A stretch of DNA of 53,549 bases from Patescibacteria group bacterium (GTDB lineage Bacteria > Patescibacteriota > Patescibacteriia > Patescibacteriales > WJLG01). The position numbers and the translations under genes were made by a program. Of this stretch, positions 9,112-39,687 are shown piece by piece. Numbering within the stretch: position 1 is the stretch's first letter; every line of letters begins with the position of its first letter. The stretch lies in the NCBI GenBank assembly GCA_028716485.1, contig JAQUPS010000009.1, forward strand, positions 1 to 53,549, given 5' to 3'. Below the pieces are notes generated by a model, which searched no databases, was not told where the DNA came from, and saw nothing but the letters and a program-made list of their open reading frames with translations.

Positions 9112-10719
9112 ATGGTTGAGAAATTAGCGGGTAAGTTCAATCGAATGATTGAGATGCTTAGATCGATGATGGAATTTGTCGAACTTTCCGACGACGGGAT
9201 TAAGACCAAAATCAAGCGGAAGTGCGACAAATTTTTCCGCAAGATGACGTTCAAGGGCGAAGCGCTCGCTTATAACGATGTTCGGCTGCGGACTTGTCAT
9301 TCGGAGATTCTGCCCGGCGATGTCAGCTTAAAGATGAGGTTTTCGCGGAATGTAACGCTGAACATCCCGATCGTCAGTTCGCCGATGCGCGACGTAACCG
9401 AGTCGGCGATGGCGATTGCCATGGCTAAGCTCGGCGGGCTGGGAATCATCCATAAGAATCTATCGCCGGAAGATCAGGCCGCGGAAGTGAGGAAAGTTAA
9501 ACGCTGTTTAAGCGCTTTTCTTACCGAACCTGTTTGCATCCGTCCGGACGATACCGTGGAAAAAGTTTTAAAAATGAGAGAGAAAGAAAATCTCAAATTT
9601 TGGAGCTTTCCGGTAATTGATGAATCGGGAAAACTAATCGGCGTGGCTACCCGCAAGTATTTTGATTTTTGCCAGAACAATCAGCAAAGCATCGGAAAAA
9701 TAATTTCGCCGGAAGTGGTTTCCGCTCCGGAAGGAATTAAAATTGCCGAAGCTTATAAGATTATGATGGACAGAGGCATCAGGATACTTCCGGTTTTAAG
9801 CGGCACAGGAGAGCTTAAGGGAACTTACACCTTGGCCGACGTCAAGCGGATCATCCAGAATGATAAAGCTGATTACAATGTCGGCTCGGATGGCAGTTTA
9901 TTTGTCGGGGCCGCAATAAATGCCGGTATGAGCGATTTGGAAATCCGTCTGAGCCTTTTGCACCAAGCCAAAGTCGACGTCGTCGTTATTGACAGCGCGC
10001 ACGGCTGGTCGGAAGGCATCATCAAAGCTTTGAAATATTGCAAGAAGACTTACCCGAAGATCGATGCGGTCGCCGGAAATATTTCCGAAGCTGGCGCGGC
10101 AATCGATCTGGTCAGAGCCGGAGCGGATGGCATCAGGATCGGCCAGGGGCCGGGATCGATTTGCACGACGCGGATGATTGCCGGCATTGGCACGCCGCAA
10201 GTTACCGCTGTTTACAGTTGCGCCAAAGCATTGCGTGATGCGGATGTTCCTTCTTGCGCTGATGGCGGAATTGAATTGTCCGGCGATATCACTATCGCTT
10301 TGGCTGCCGGAGCCGCTAATGTGATGCTGGGCAAACTTTTGGCCGGCACTACGGAAAGTCCGGGCGAGATTATCCGATCGCCGGAGGGCGCGGCCTATAA
10401 GAATTATCGCGGCGAGGGATCGCTTGGCGCGATGATCGAGAACCGGGCCTGCCGCGAAAGGTATGGCCAGGCAGATAACGCCAAAGATAAATTAGTCCCC
10501 GAAGGAGTAGAAAGCACAGTTGATTATAAAGGCGATGTCGGAGTGATTATTTATCAATTGCTCGGCGGACTAAGGTCGGGAATGGGCTATCTGGGAGCGA
10601 AGGATATTCCGACGCTTCAGGAAAAAGCTGATTTTTATCAAATGTCATCGGCCGGCCTAAAGGAATCTCATCCGCACGGTCTGCAAACCATCAAGAAAGC
10701 GCCAAACTATAATATCTGA
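9112..10719 (+). CDS. guaB: Inosine-5'-monophosphate dehydrogenase
   Basis: Oxidises IMP to XMP with NAD, the first step to GMP. The start is set by AAAGGAGG at 9099-9106. The 535-residue product carries a charged ~60-residue N-terminal extension, the barrel start [11 protein letters not shown], then two CBS domains (from about 135 to 250), the NAD/IMP barrel with DSAHG and AVAGN, and the catalytic loop GPGSICTTR with C351. The active-site flap RGEGSLGAM and the downstream ARG-type YKGDVG segment are present. Family length is about 490, so the N-terminal extension is unusual. The purA-like gene starts 14 nt after its stop, forming a purine interconversion pair. Confidence 0.93.
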
Positions 10720-10733
10720 AGAAAGGGTTGCCT

Positions 10734-12269
10734 ATGAACAAGAACGGATTTTTGACCGAGAGGATTGCTAAGCTGACTAAAAATGTCAAAACTATGGCTG
10801 TCACTTGCCTGCAATGGGGAGATACGGGCAAAGGTAAAATTGTCGATTTATTTTCCGGCTGGGCGGACATTATTGTCCGCGGCACCGGCGGCGCCAATGC
10901 CGGACATACTATTGTCTTGGGATTGAAAAAGTTTATTTTTCATCTCATCCCATCGGGAATCCACTTTGACAAGGATGGCAAAGTTAATGCGATGGGCAGG
11001 GGAATGGCGATTGATCCGGAAATCTTCGTCAGCGAATTATCCTTGCTCGACAAGCAGAAGATCAGTTATGACAATCTGATTGTCGCCGGAAATGCCAATC
11101 TGACTTTGCCAGTCCATATTTTATTGGATTTGGCGAATGAAGGCGGCGGCAGTAAGGGAAAGATTGGCACGACGGGCAGGGGAATCGGCCCGACCTATGT
11201 TGATTTTTACGGACGGCGCGGGCTGACCATCAATGATTTGCTCAATAAGGATGTTTTTGCGATTAAGTTGAAACGCAATCTGGATTATAATCTGCGCGTC
11301 TTGCGCGGCTATGATCCGGTTATGCTGAAAGAGTTGCTGTTTAGCGAGCGGCTGAGCAAAGGAATTTATTATGATTCCCAAAATATCCTTAACATCGAGG
11401 CTATCGTCAGCAAGTATGTCGATGAGTATGGCAAAAGGCTGGGCGGATTGATTAGGGATGTGGATGCCTACATCATAAAAAATGCGGGCAAGAAAAAGAT
11501 CCTTTGCGAAGGCGCGCAAGGCCATAATTTGAGCATCCTGCACGGATCATATCCTTTTGTCACGCCTTCCGATTGCTCGCTGGACGGTTTGCTGGCCGGT
11601 TGCGGCTTGAACCGTTCATACCTTGACCTGGCTTTAGGAATCATAAAAGGTTTCTATATGACCAGAGTCGGCGATGGGCCGTTTCCGACCGAGTTAGGCG
11701 GAAAACTATCGGACGATTGGTGCGGCGGACGGAGCTCGGAAGGGAAAGTTGACCGCGCCAAGGAATTGGAAAAATATCCCGATGTTTCTGTCGATGATGA
11801 GGATGAATTTCGCCAGGGTATGGCTTTGCGCCGCGCGGGCGACGAATACGGCGCGACGACCGGGCGGCCGAGAAGAGTCGGCTGGCTGGATCTGCCGCTG
11901 TTGAAGTCCGCTCTGCGCTGGGCGACTAAGGATGCAGCGCTTACCAAGCTGGACGTGCTCAATGATGTAGAGGAAATCAAAATCTGTTATGCCTATGATT
12001 ATCAAGGCTCGGACTATCGCTATGGCGACAAGATCATCAGACGCGGCGACCATCTTTACGAGGCGATTCCCGCGGCTGAAGTCCTGCAATATTGCCAGCC
12101 GATCTACAATTCTTTTCCAGGCTGGCAGGGTAGCTTGGCGGGGGTTACTGATTATGACGGATTGCCCCGGCAACTAAGGGAGATTGTCGAATACGTCAGA
12201 AATCAAACCGACATCTTGCCGCGGATCATTTCCACTGGCGCTGATCGGGAAGAAACTATCTTTGTTTAA
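10734..12269 (+). CDS. purA: Adenylosuccinate synthetase, divergent
   Basis: Joins IMP and aspartate with GTP to adenylosuccinate. The ATG at 10734 follows GAAAGGG. The 511-residue product is longer than the usual ~430. Retained: the P-loop-like QWGDTGKGKIVD with the catalytic Asp, NAGHT, IGTTGRGIGP, EGAQG, EYGATTGRPRRVGW, TKLDVLND and the C-terminal ADREETI. Odd: the near-invariant Glu of GDEGKGK is Thr, TTAGG is replaced by CSLDG, and ~50 extra residues (SDDWCGGRSSEGK..) precede the GATTGR motif. Coupled to guaB. It is a true PurA relative, but substrate range could be altered. Confidence 0.88.
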   Translation: MNKNGFLTERIAKLTKNVKTMAVTCLQWGDTGKGKIVDLFSGWADIIVRGTGGANAGHTIVLGLKKFIFHLIPSGIHFDKDGKVNAMGRGMAIDPEIFVSELSLLDKQKISYDNLIVAGNANLTLPVHILLDLANEGGGSKGKIGTTGRGIGPTYVDFYGRRGLTINDLLNKDVFAIKLKRNLDYNLRVLRGYDPVMLKELLFSERLSKGIYYDSQNILNIEAIVSKYVDEYGKRLGGLIRDVDAYIIKNAGKKKILCEGAQGHNLSILHGSYPFVTPSDCSLDGLLAGCGLNRSYLDLALGIIKGFYMTRVGDGPFPTELGGKLSDDWCGGRSSEGKVDRAKELEKYPDVSVDDEDEFRQGMALRRAGDEYGATTGRPRRVGWLDLPLLKSALRWATKDAALTKLDVLNDVEEIKICYAYDYQGSDYRYGDKIIRRGDHLYEAIPAAEVLQYCQPIYNSFPGWQGSLAGVTDYDGLPRQLREIVEYVRNQTDILPRIISTGADREETIFV

Positions 12270-13670: not shown

Positions 13671-15239
13671 TTAAGCGGATAAGATGCGAGCTGGCAATCC
13701 CAGCAACTCGGCCGCCGCCAGCATTTCCGGAACGATATACTCGTTCGTATGCTGGCCGTGATTGGGCGTCCAAGCCAGGGTGGCGGCTTCAGTCGCCGTC
13801 ATCTGGTCATCGCCCGCGCCGACGTTTTCGCCGTGGATTTTAACTATGCCCATTGGCCAGCGGTCAAGCAGGCCATAGTGCCGGTTTCTCTCTTCCCAGC
13901 TCAACGGCAGGATATCCATTCCCGCGACAGTAAGCTGATAGGTGCTGCCAGTGCCGTGAAAGCGCGCCAGGGTGGTATTGTTAACCGGCTGCATATTTCC
14001 CAAAATGGCTCCGCCGCCGTTGAGGAAATAAACCTCGCGGTTTTGCGAGACAACCGAGATATCACTGTAGTCTCCCGGCTTATCTGTCATAAAATCCAGA
14101 CTCAACGCGCCGGAATTAAGCAGAACCAAAGTATCATTTTCGGCGTTGTAGTGGCGGATGTCATGAAAACCGACCGGTTTCCACATCCCGATTTTTACAT
14201 AGAGAATCGCCTGCATTAGCATGGAAGTGAAAAGAGCTTCACAATCGGCTTCGGTGACGTCGATCACCGGCCGATTTTTTTCCGGACTGATAGTACTCAT
14301 CATCAGGCTGTCAGCCAAATCTGTGGCCACGATGCCGATGTGCTCCATCTGCCCTTGGGTTCCCATTCCGGCCGCGCCCGATTTGAACAAGTCCAGTTTG
14401 TAAAGATACATCCGAAGCGCCAGGTCGATTTCATGGCGGGAAAGGCCATTGAGTCGGTACTCGAATTTAAGCCCCCGCTCTTTCAGCTTGCGATAAGCGG
14501 CATTTACTCGTTTGGCGGCTATGCCATTTATGCCTCGGAAAAACTCGTTGGAACCGATATAAATCGGCGTCAGTCCGAGCTTGCTAAAAAGGTAATAATG
14601 AGGCCAGCCCTGCGCCATGGTCATCGAATTAACGCTAAGCAACGGAACCGGACTGCCGGATTCCCGGAGCAATTTGATGGCGTCGGAAGCTGTTCGCCGA
14701 TGCTCGTCCTTTACTTCAACTTCCCCTCTGGGTTCAAGTTGTTTGTACTGACCCAGGAAGGTTTGGCCAAGCTGGCGGCTAAGCTTATTCCAGCCTGAGT
14801 CGCTCGGGTCGATGACGGCCAGACAAGTATAAGGCATCTTCATGATTTCCAATTTAAGCACGGCGGCTCGGGCGCCGACATAGCCGGGCGCTTTTTCTTT
14901 CATATTGCAGATTAAAATGATCTGCAACTCGCCCTTTTGGACGCGCTCCTGAATCATCGCGAAAATAACGCCGCTGTGTTCCGGCCAGGCCCAGCCGGTG
15001 AGAACGCAGACCAGGCAATCGTTCGGTTTGCTTTGCGCCAGCAGTTCCAGGCCGACTTGTCTGGACATCGCCCAGGAGTCAATCGCGACTTTTTGGTCAT
15101 GAAGCCAGACAGGTTCTCGGCCTTCTTTTCGCAAGGCCGCTTCCACTCTCGGCATTATCTTCTGGTGGTCTTCCATCCAAAAGGCGTTAGCCGTGGGCCG
15201 GCCGTCGCCCGGGGTGATTAAAAAAGCCTTCCTTTCCAT
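13671..15239 (-). CDS. L-fucose/L-arabinose isomerase-like protein
   Basis: 522 residues, preceded by AAAGGAGACGATA. The N-terminal domain (LITPGDGRPTANAFWMEDHQKIMPRVEAAL) and general plan resemble the FucI/AraA sugar isomerases. The likely metal ligands are a Glu and an Asp in the DVTEADCEALFTSM segment (about 327-340) and a C-terminal His in PNHGQHTNEYI (about 493). These enzymes convert aldoses to ketoses with Mn2+. Similarity to characterised members is distant, so the substrate is open. The gene is transcribed away from typA and is alone in its unit. GC is high compared with the AT-rich island. Confidence 0.6.
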   Translation of the reverse strand: MERKAFLITPGDGRPTANAFWMEDHQKIMPRVEAALRKEGREPVWLHDQKVAIDSWAMSRQVGLELLAQSKPNDCLVCVLTGWAWPEHSGVIFAMIQERVQKGELQIILICNMKEKAPGYVGARAAVLKLEIMKMPYTCLAVIDPSDSGWNKLSRQLGQTFLGQYKQLEPRGEVEVKDEHRRTASDAIKLLRESGSPVPLLSVNSMTMAQGWPHYYLFSKLGLTPIYIGSNEFFRGINGIAAKRVNAAYRKLKERGLKFEYRLNGLSRHEIDLALRMYLYKLDLFKSGAAGMGTQGQMEHIGIVATDLADSLMMSTISPEKNRPVIDVTEADCEALFTSMLMQAILYVKIGMWKPVGFHDIRHYNAENDTLVLLNSGALSLDFMTDKPGDYSDISVVSQNREVYFLNGGGAILGNMQPVNNTTLARFHGTGSTYQLTVAGMDILPLSWEERNRHYGLLDRWPMGIVKIHGENVGAGDDQMTATEAATLAWTPNHGQHTNEYIVPEMLAAAELLGLPARILSA

Positions 15240-18579: not shown

Positions 18580-18780
18580 GCGCGCATTGGAAAATTTTGG
18601 ATAAGACGCGCAGCGTAGAAACCGTGCAAAATTGCGTTGTCCGAAGTCCCGCTTCATTATTATAATTTTAATAAAGGAAAGCGGGGCAAGTATAGCAATT
18701 TTGATAGGTTTCATAGCGGAGCGTCCCAAAATTTGTCCAGCGCGCAGTTTTTTGTGCCACTTTTTTTAAAAAAAGTGGCA
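18580..18780 (-). repeat. ~200-nt foldback repeat, copy A
   Basis: Near-identical in reverse complement to 38461-38658. Both ends carry GCGCGC within imperfect terminal inverted repeats (GCGCGCATTGGAAAATTT against AAATTTGTCCAGCGCGC), and inner segments pair too (AAACCGTGCAAAATTGC against GCAATTTTGATAGGTTT), so a transcript would fold into one long hairpin. A 12-bp palindrome (GCCACTTTTTTT and its complement, 18756-18779) marks the side facing the minus-strand gene that ends at 18793. No open frame worth calling is inside. Confidence 0.85.
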
Positions 18781-18792
18781 AAGAAGGGGTTT

Positions 18793-19749
18793 TTATTTCC
18801 AGACTCCAGGAATTGCCGTTCCGTCGGCGCATTTGCCGTCTTTAAGATTATTTTGCAAAAGAAAATCGTCCTGGCGGCCAAGCGCCACGGTGCCGTCGGC
18901 GCAATAAGTATTTTCTCCCAGAGGATAGTCAAAGCCGCCGATGTAAACATATTTGAATCCGGCTCTAAGGGCTTGTTCGCGAGCCGCGATGATAATCGGC
19001 GTGGTAGTGGCATCGGCAACGCCATCAGCGGAGGAAAAATGAATAATCGCGTCTTGGCCGGCGCTTTCCGCGACCGCGGTAATGAATTTATTTATTTCCG
19101 TGGTCGTGCTGTTGGCGGAATTCAGATAATCCAAAATTTCCAAATGAACGCCCGTCGCTTTAATCGCTTGGATTTTTGCCTGCATGGCCGGTAAATATGT
19201 TTCGGCGGTTGTCGAACAATAATTATTTTCAGTATCGCCCAGATTTATTTTTACCGCGTCCAGATAGGGCAGGATATTTTTTAAAATCGCCAAATTCAGG
19301 CAGTTGTCATAGGTTAGCGTGGCGCGGAAACCGTTTTGCTTGGCCAGTTTTGCCAGATTAAGATTATAATCGTCGGCGGACGGCGAATTTGAATCATCCA
19401 AAGAAATTATCGCCGCCGCGGCGTTTTTCGCCTCGGTAATCACTTGTTCTTTCGGCCGCGCCGCAGTTCCGGCTGCGGCAGCCGGCAAGCCAAGGTCTTT
19501 ATCGATCGCTTCCAGATAATAAGCTTTCGTGCCGGGCAGGAAATGATAAAAGCCGACTTTTTCAAGCGGTTCAATCGCGGCCACCGGCGGCTGGCCGGTC
19601 TTTTTTTGCGTAATTTCTCTTTTGATTTTGACCGCCAGATTGACGCTCTTGACCGTGCTTTGGATTAAAATCGTCGGCAGCAACGCCAAAAAAGAGAGAA
19701 ACAATATTCCCAAAGATATGCTCAAGATTTTTTTTAACCGTTTATTCAT
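18793..19749 (-). CDS. Membrane-anchored AmrS-like protein lacking radical-SAM cysteines
   Basis: 318 residues. An N-terminal membrane segment (about 8-30) puts the rest outside the cytoplasm. The remainder aligns by eye with AmrS, the radical SAM protein of the AmmeMemoRadiSam set: PLEKVGFYHFLPGTK (61-75), AKLAKQNGF, PYLDAVKINLGD, a GVHLEIL strand, IIHFSSADG, FKYVYIGG, NTYCADG and the ending NNLKDGKCADGTAIPGVWK. Where AmrS has CxxxCxxC directly after HFLPGT, this protein has AIDKDLGL, without any cysteine, and the paired C-terminal CxxC knuckles keep only one Cys each. It therefore cannot bind the SAM cluster as usual. A hairpin at 19815-19842 (GACCCC/GGGGTC) lies in its leader. Role unknown; a carbohydrate-binding or hydrolytic TIM barrel is possible. 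Confidence 0.7.
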   Translation of the reverse strand: MNKRLKKILSISLGILFLSFLALLPTILIQSTVKSVNLAVKIKREITQKKTGQPPVAAIEPLEKVGFYHFLPGTKAYYLEAIDKDLGLPAAAAGTAARPKEQVITEAKNAAAAIISLDDSNSPSADDYNLNLAKLAKQNGFRATLTYDNCLNLAILKNILPYLDAVKINLGDTENNYCSTTAETYLPAMQAKIQAIKATGVHLEILDYLNSANSTTTEINKFITAVAESAGQDAIIHFSSADGVADATTTPIIIAAREQALRAGFKYVYIGGFDYPLGENTYCADGTVALGRQDDFLLQNNLKDGKCADGTAIPGVWK

Positions 19750-38758: not shown

Positions 38759-38901
38759 GCTAAATACATAGGAAAAGCCAGTATTAATGGCCTTTCCGAT
38801 TTTATTTAATAAATCTCTCACGCTTGAAAGTTTAAGGGAAACCTTGTCTATTCTTAGCCGGAATAGATATAATTGTCAGGCGGAGGACAAAAGGAAAAAC
38901 T

Positions 38902-39606
38902 ATGGCTACTAAATTGCCAACAATCGAAGCGATGCTCGAAGCGGGCATGCATTTCGGCCACAGTACCGGCAAGTGGCACCCGAAGATGAAACCGTATATT
39001 TTTACGGAACGCAAAGGAGTTTATATCGTTGATTTGGCGAAAAGCCAAAAAATGCTGGGAACCGCGGTCGAGTTTATGCAGAATTTGACCCGCGAAAGCA
39101 AGACGATCTTGTTCGTCGGCACCAAAAATCAAGTTAAAAAAGATTTGCGCGCGACCGCCGAGGCCGTGGAGATGCCGTATGTTTCGGAAAAATGGATGGG
39201 CGGCGTTTTGACCAACTTCCCGATCATTAGAAAAATGATCAACCGCTATAAGAGCTTGCGCGAAGAAAAAGCTTTGGGAAAACTGGATCGCTACACCAAG
39301 AAAGAACGCTCTGATTTTGACAAGGAAATCAAACGCCTGGAACTTAAAGTCGGCGGTCTGACCAATCTGACAAAACTTCCCGACGCGCTGTTTATCTGGG
39401 ATATTAAAAAAGAAAAAACCGCCGTGGCCGAGGCCAGGGTTAAAAATATTCCGATTGTCGCGATTTGCGACACGAACTCCAACCCCGATTTGGTGAATTA
39501 CGTCATTCCGGGAAACGACGATGCTTCCAAAACCGTCAAACTGATTATGGATTGCATCAAAGAAAATCTTCTCGAAGCGAAAAAAGAAATTAAAACAAAT
39601 AAATAG
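38902..39606 (+). CDS. rpsB: Small ribosomal subunit protein uS2
   Basis: 234 residues, normal length. Family signatures: MLEAGMHFGHSTGKWHPKMKPYI at the N-terminus (shown in part), ILFVGTKNQ, VSEKWMGGVLTNF and the C-terminal AICDTNSNPDLVNYVIPGND. Preceded by AAAGG. Followed by tsf, the usual bacterial order. Confidence 0.97.
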   Translation: MATKLPTIEAMLEAGMHFGHSTGKWHPKMKPYIFTERKGVYIVDLAKSQKMLGTAVEFMQNLTRESKTILFVGTKNQVKKDLRATAEAVEMPYVSEKWMGGVLTNFPIIRKMINRYKSLREEKALGKLDRYTKKERSDFDKEIKRLELKVGGLTNLTKLPDALFIWDIKKEKTAVAEARVKNIPIVAICDTNSNPDLVNYVIPGNDDASKTVKLIMDCIKENLLEAKKEIKTNK

Positions 39607-39687
39607 CATGTATCAGGTATCAGGTAGCATGAGATGTAACCGATAAAGCGTTGCATGCCGCATGCTGCATGTTTCCTGGCCAATTTT

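Follow-up and report, generated by a model that had tools for sequence, protein, structure and literature searches.

An AmrS-derived, membrane-anchored protein lacking the radical-SAM cysteines in a Patescibacteria group bacterium

The window, that is, the whole 53,549-nt stretch of DNA analysed here, encodes on its minus strand a protein that, on sequence evidence, derives from the radical SAM enzyme AmrS and has lost its cluster motif. The gene is under purifying selection and is not decaying. The explanation that we favor, and consider probable, is that the product is a membrane-anchored, probably extracytoplasmic pseudoenzyme with a non-catalytic binding or scaffold role, which arose from a transmembrane (TM)-anchored branch of AmrS. 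The host genome (G000) comprises 28 contigs totalling 1.15 Mb and is 99% complete. The gene and its parts are as follows.

18793..19749, minus strand: coding sequence of the AmrS-derived pseudoenzyme (318 aa, ATG start), supported by the open reading frame, TIGR04337 (E 6.2e-15), hhalign (E 1.2e-40), and an orthologue (L008) at dN/dS 0.16.
19663..19728, minus strand: N-terminal membrane anchor, residues 8-29, with a net positive N-terminal flank; from hydrophobicity, with residues 1-41 88% identical to the orthologue.
19528..19545, minus strand: HFLPGT, residues 69-74, an AmrS landmark still present; H, F, and P are invariant in 49-50 of 50 CxxxCxxC-bearing AmrS.
19480..19503, minus strand: lost radical-SAM motif, residues 83-90, DKDLGLPA in place of G-CxxxCxxC and aligned with DQDLNCPSC of the orthologue.
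18958..19452, minus strand: core of the TIM barrel, residues 100-264, from which the AmrS motifs TYxEP, SxGY, DLK, and HxSRF are missing; from model and alignment.
18796..18957, minus strand: final strand followed by the conserved C-terminal tail, residues 265-318, which contains cysteines C283 and C307; 89% identical to the orthologue, and, as in anchored AmrS, with two tail cysteines instead of four.
18755..18780, no strand assigned: inverted repeat TGCCACTTTTTTT/AAAAAAAGTGGCA, terminator-like, directly 3' of the stop codon; found by eye and unscored.

The NCBIfam model of the AmmeMemoRadiSam radical SAM enzyme, TIGR04337, matched the window protein with E 6.2e-15, although neither this protein (54.9 bits) nor its orthologue (65.4 bits) reached the curated cut-off of 220 bits. 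A profile of the two pseudoenzymes was aligned with 14 AmrS sequences by hhalign (probability 100%, E 1.2e-40, 276 columns), and the match began ahead of HFLPG and ran to the C-terminal residue. The AmrS landmarks that an earlier note on this DNA had described, from HFLPGT to the C-terminal ending DGKCADGTAIPGVWK, were indeed present. The relatives in named genomes were Lentisphaerae AmrS with an intact CxxxCxxC (E 4e-37 to 4e-33, about 30% identity). On these three kinds of match, descent from AmrS is settled at the level of sequence comparison. No other TIM-barrel family scored above AmrS. A Pfam search of the protein matched no family, glycoside hydrolase families included, and a sequence search against solved structures gave no significant match; a different TIM-barrel family was rejected on these grounds. 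An AlphaFold2 (AF2) model was weak (pLDDT 61, from a shallow four-row alignment of the window protein and proteins of related loci), and its matches in the PDB were generic TIM barrels mixed with radical SAM barrels.

Residues 11-29 had a mean Kyte-Doolittle hydrophobicity of 2.5 over 19 residues and were preceded by a net charge of +4, whereas the TM-less AmrS tested did not exceed 1.0 in their first 90 residues. The window protein has an N-terminal membrane anchor. Hydrophobicity and charge suggest that the barrel lies outside the membrane, but positive charges are also found on the C-terminal side of the TM segment, which counts against this topology. The anchor postulated in the earlier note is present, and the export that it was said to cause is probable from these two properties. 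Radical SAM enzymes depend on SAM and on an oxygen-sensitive cluster in its reduced state, which are both supplied by the cytoplasm, so an anchored and apparently exported branch of AmrS is in itself unexpected.

In an alignment with 50 CxxxCxxC-bearing AmrS (cytosolic, Lentisphaerae, and anchored), 50 columns reached an invariance of at least 95%. Of these, 16 were retained in the window protein, none of them a cluster or SAM position, and 19 in the orthologue, among which are cluster cysteines 2 and 3. All three cysteines of CxxxCxxC were absent from the window protein, in which AIDKDLGL (residues 81-88) occupies the position of the cluster motif, as had been noticed before. The four cysteines of the N-terminal domain (CxxCxxxC...C), invariant in 50 of 50 CxxxCxxC-bearing rows, were also missing. 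At the SAM site, TYxEP, SxGY, and DLK were replaced by DDSNS, YDNC, and NLG, and the invariant residues lost were T, Y, and P of TYxEP, G of SxGY, D and K of DLK, and F of HxSRF.

The cluster segment itself reads GCNLHCLNC in canonical AmrS, DQDLNCPSC in the orthologue, and DKDLGLPA in the window protein. Because the orthologue, the close homologue in which a full motif was looked for, retains only cysteines 2 and 3 (QxxxCxxC), the alignment provides direct evidence that the motif was once present and was then lost in steps. These two cysteines form a CPSC, for which a disulfide outside the cell is also conceivable. In the window protein, C178 stands at a nearly invariant tyrosine of AmrS, and C150 and C178 lie in neighboring loops where AmrS has other residues.

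AmrS with an N-terminal TM segment and an intact CxxxCxxC was found elsewhere in the phylum, in four genomes (G754, G647, G309, and G317; loci L113, L114, L119, and L120), scoring 366-401 bits against TIGR04337. A fifth genome (G706, L115) carries a member of the branch whose N-terminus is cut by the contig end. The neighborhoods of the first four all encode a DsbD_2 transmembrane protein and a membrane protein that carries a spermine synthase domain. Next to AmrS in G647 and G317, and about 4 kb off in G309, there is also a Memo-AMMECR1 fusion whose N-terminus includes a hydrophobic segment; in G754, where the contig ends near AmrS, there was no such fusion among the neighbors. The loci lie at L113:6530-7687, L114:6026-8668, L119:4316-5455 and about 9808-11415, and L120:4943-7608. 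Taken together, the anchored AmrS, DsbD_2, spermine-synthase-type protein, and anchored Memo-AMMECR1 (three of four) possibly constitute an extracytoplasmic AmmeMemoRadiSam system that is rare in the phylum.

Three lines of evidence connect the window protein with this branch. Exactly two tail cysteines are present in the AmrS of all five genomes and in both pseudoenzymes, whereas all 47 TM-less AmrS possessing the tail have four to six; since the sequences are related, this should be read as one shared lineage mark and not as 47 independent observations. An HMM built from the anchored four gave the window protein a higher score (133.6 bits) than those built from Lentisphaerae AmrS (114.5 bits) or from 43 cytosolic sequences (96.0 bits). 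In the tree, the pseudoenzymes, anchored AmrS, and Lentisphaerae AmrS were grouped with 100/99 support and set off from the phylum's cytosolic AmrS, among them the second, catalytic-type AmrS of the orthologue's genome (L034 in G001); the pseudoenzyme branch is long, and the tree supports the group as a whole rather than an order inside it. The window protein has both features of the branch, the N-terminal TM segment and the two-cysteine tail. These results suggest that its likely source is the TM-anchored AmrS that keeps CxxxCxxC. A recent duplication of the order's own cytosolic AmrS was rejected on the evidence of the tree and the two-cysteine tail.

The orthologue (G001:C3:99168-100136) comes from the same genus and is 74% identical, with conserved gene order: BipA, a YdjM-type membrane protein, the pseudoenzyme, a GT4 glycosyltransferase, and then DUF4012 and DUF11 proteins. 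Between the two sequences, dN was 0.176 and dS 1.115, giving a dN/dS of 0.16, which is approximate at a dS near or above 1. The same method gave 0.05 to 0.18 for five neighboring genes, a range that includes the pseudoenzyme. Descent from AmrS, loss of the catalytic residues, and continued selection together indicate that the scaffold appears to be reused for a non-enzymatic job. That the gene is a decaying relic without function is very improbable: the catalytic residues were lost in steps and the orthologue has two of three cluster cysteines, but dN/dS resembles that of the neighbors, the frame is intact, the gene order is conserved, and the TM segment and tail are strongly conserved. Searches that covered 111 genomes at the level of the order, 381 at that of the class, and 380 at that of the phylum yielded these two proteins, both from one genus, as the only members, a count for which lower-scoring matches in the order and class searches were only partly read. 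Viral contigs searched for relatives yielded none.

Conservation was unevenly distributed along the protein. Identity to the orthologue was 74% over the full length but 88% for residues 1-41 and 89% for residues 265-318. On the strand-end face of the barrel, the place expected for the SAM site or for a new pocket, conservation was 65% (64% within the core) versus a core mean of 72%, and 152 of 182 circular shifts were as high; the test has low power, as it compares two sequences on a weak model. As the barrel face is less conserved than the TM segment and the tail, the latter two would be the working surfaces, and a binding or scaffold role is preferred. According to this explanation, the role would be exerted via the conserved TM/juxtamembrane segment and the C-terminal tail, as the two-sequence pattern suggests; a C283-C307 disulfide may have taken the place of metal sites, with perhaps another between C150 and C178. 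The history would consist of two steps: a cytosolic AmrS became an anchored AmrS with the cluster motif, beside a DsbD_2 protein, and the cysteines were then lost stepwise in the genus of the window protein. The earlier note had pictured a scaffold moved outside the cell and stripped of its cluster; the loss of the cluster is borne out and the outside location is probable, but anchoring and loss were not a single move, because anchored relatives with an intact CxxxCxxC exist.

It is conceivable, though we think it fairly doubtful, that these anchored relatives function outside the cytoplasm as active radical SAM enzymes, with electrons passed to them across the membrane by the neighboring DsbD_2 and DUF4405-like proteins, and that the window protein descends from them, having given up the chemistry but kept a binding role outside.

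Two further readings are both unlikely. In one, which the earlier note had put forward as a glycan-binding or hydrolytic role, the protein would be a repurposed enzyme or lectin whose emptied SAM site became a polar and aromatic pocket that binds or cleaves surface glycan. The pocket residues D119, D148, D207, D242, D274, Y147, Y208, and Y275 are common to both orthologues, a GT4 gene adjoins the pseudoenzyme gene, and Foldseek returned weak matches to O-GlcNAcase. However, the TM-scores of these matches were about 0.3, Pfam assigned no glycoside hydrolase family, and the conservation of the strand-end face, albeit from a low-power test, disfavors a pocket for catalysis or glycan cleavage. Nor is the neighborhood as a whole one of surface-glycan genes, as had been proposed: beyond the single GT4, the neighbors tested were BipA, the YdjM-type membrane protein, DUF4012, and DUF11, and the pseudoenzyme gene stands alone on its strand, opposite to the surrounding genes. 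Elsewhere in the window, a 522-aa open reading frame (13671-15239, minus strand) had no Pfam match at E 0.001, and two frames of 251 aa (38854-39609, minus strand) and 234 aa (38902-39606, plus strand) overlap on opposite strands, one of them probably spurious.

In the other, the protein would act outside the membrane together with an exported Memo, with AmrS-Memo docking kept and the chemistry gone. The host genome has one divergent, TM-anchored, stand-alone Memo, and G001 has a TM-anchored Memo-PGA_cap fusion alongside a canonical AmrS-Memo-AMMECR1 cluster. At the thresholds used, no catalytic AmrS, AMMECR1, or spermine-synthase gene was detected in the host genome, which does have a longer DsbD_2 protein; the AmmeMemoRadiSam system calls for Memo and AMMECR1, usually adjacent, and this pair is lacking there. 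On the other side, the Memo gene is on another contig (C20:6200-6709), unlinked to the pseudoenzyme gene, and Memo proteins of divergent sequence, many of them encoded in frames of about 590-660 aa, are common in genomes of the order that lack the pseudoenzyme, which makes the co-occurrence unspecific. A specific pairing with an exported Memo was rejected on this basis. The fusion in G001 (L117:7964-9919) joins the TM-anchored Memo to a PGA_cap (capsule synthesis) domain, and in length it resembles the Memo-matching frames of many other genomes of the order.

The reuse of an enzyme scaffold after loss of its chemistry can be read here as a series: TM-less AmrS, anchored AmrS with the cluster motif, the anchored orthologue, in which two of the three cysteines remain, and the window protein with none. 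To our knowledge, the function of the Memo-AMMECR1-AmrS system is still unknown, and the pseudoenzyme series offers a new angle on it. A literature search on radical SAM pseudoenzymes, exported AmrS, or an anchored AmrS branch found nothing on point. A 2020 paper mentions peptide-processing systems whose radical-SAM domains are related to those of Memo-Ammecr1 systems (PMC7159879).

Among known systems, the pyruvate formate-lyase-activating enzymes, which are also radical SAM proteins, share only a partial barrel with the weak AF2 model (fragment 3can, target TM-score 0.71), and no solved structure matched significantly by sequence. AmrS (TIGR04337) is about 30% identical over the 276 aligned columns, which run from the residues preceding HFLPG to the C-terminus; in contrast to it, the window protein lacks CxxxCxxC, the N-terminal Cys domain, and the SAM-site residues, and has an anchor and only two tail cysteines. 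Lentisphaerae AmrS (L001-L003), the closest relatives in named genomes (30-33% identity), have the QNNLKDGKC tail in common with the window protein, but differ in having no TM segment, a full CxxxCxxC, and four tail cysteines. In L001 and L003, the gene after AmrS encodes a Memo-AMMECR1-like fusion that begins with what resembles a signal peptide (domains assigned by eye), and a large membrane protein comes next (L001:5959-9623, L003:4613-7459). The anchored AmrS resemble the window protein in the N-terminal TM segment, the two-cysteine tail, a GVW/GIW-type ending, and the best-scoring HMM, whereas they keep their own CxxxCxxC and N-terminal Cys domain and have DsbD_2, Spermine_synth, and, in three of four cases, Memo-AMMECR1 as their neighbors.
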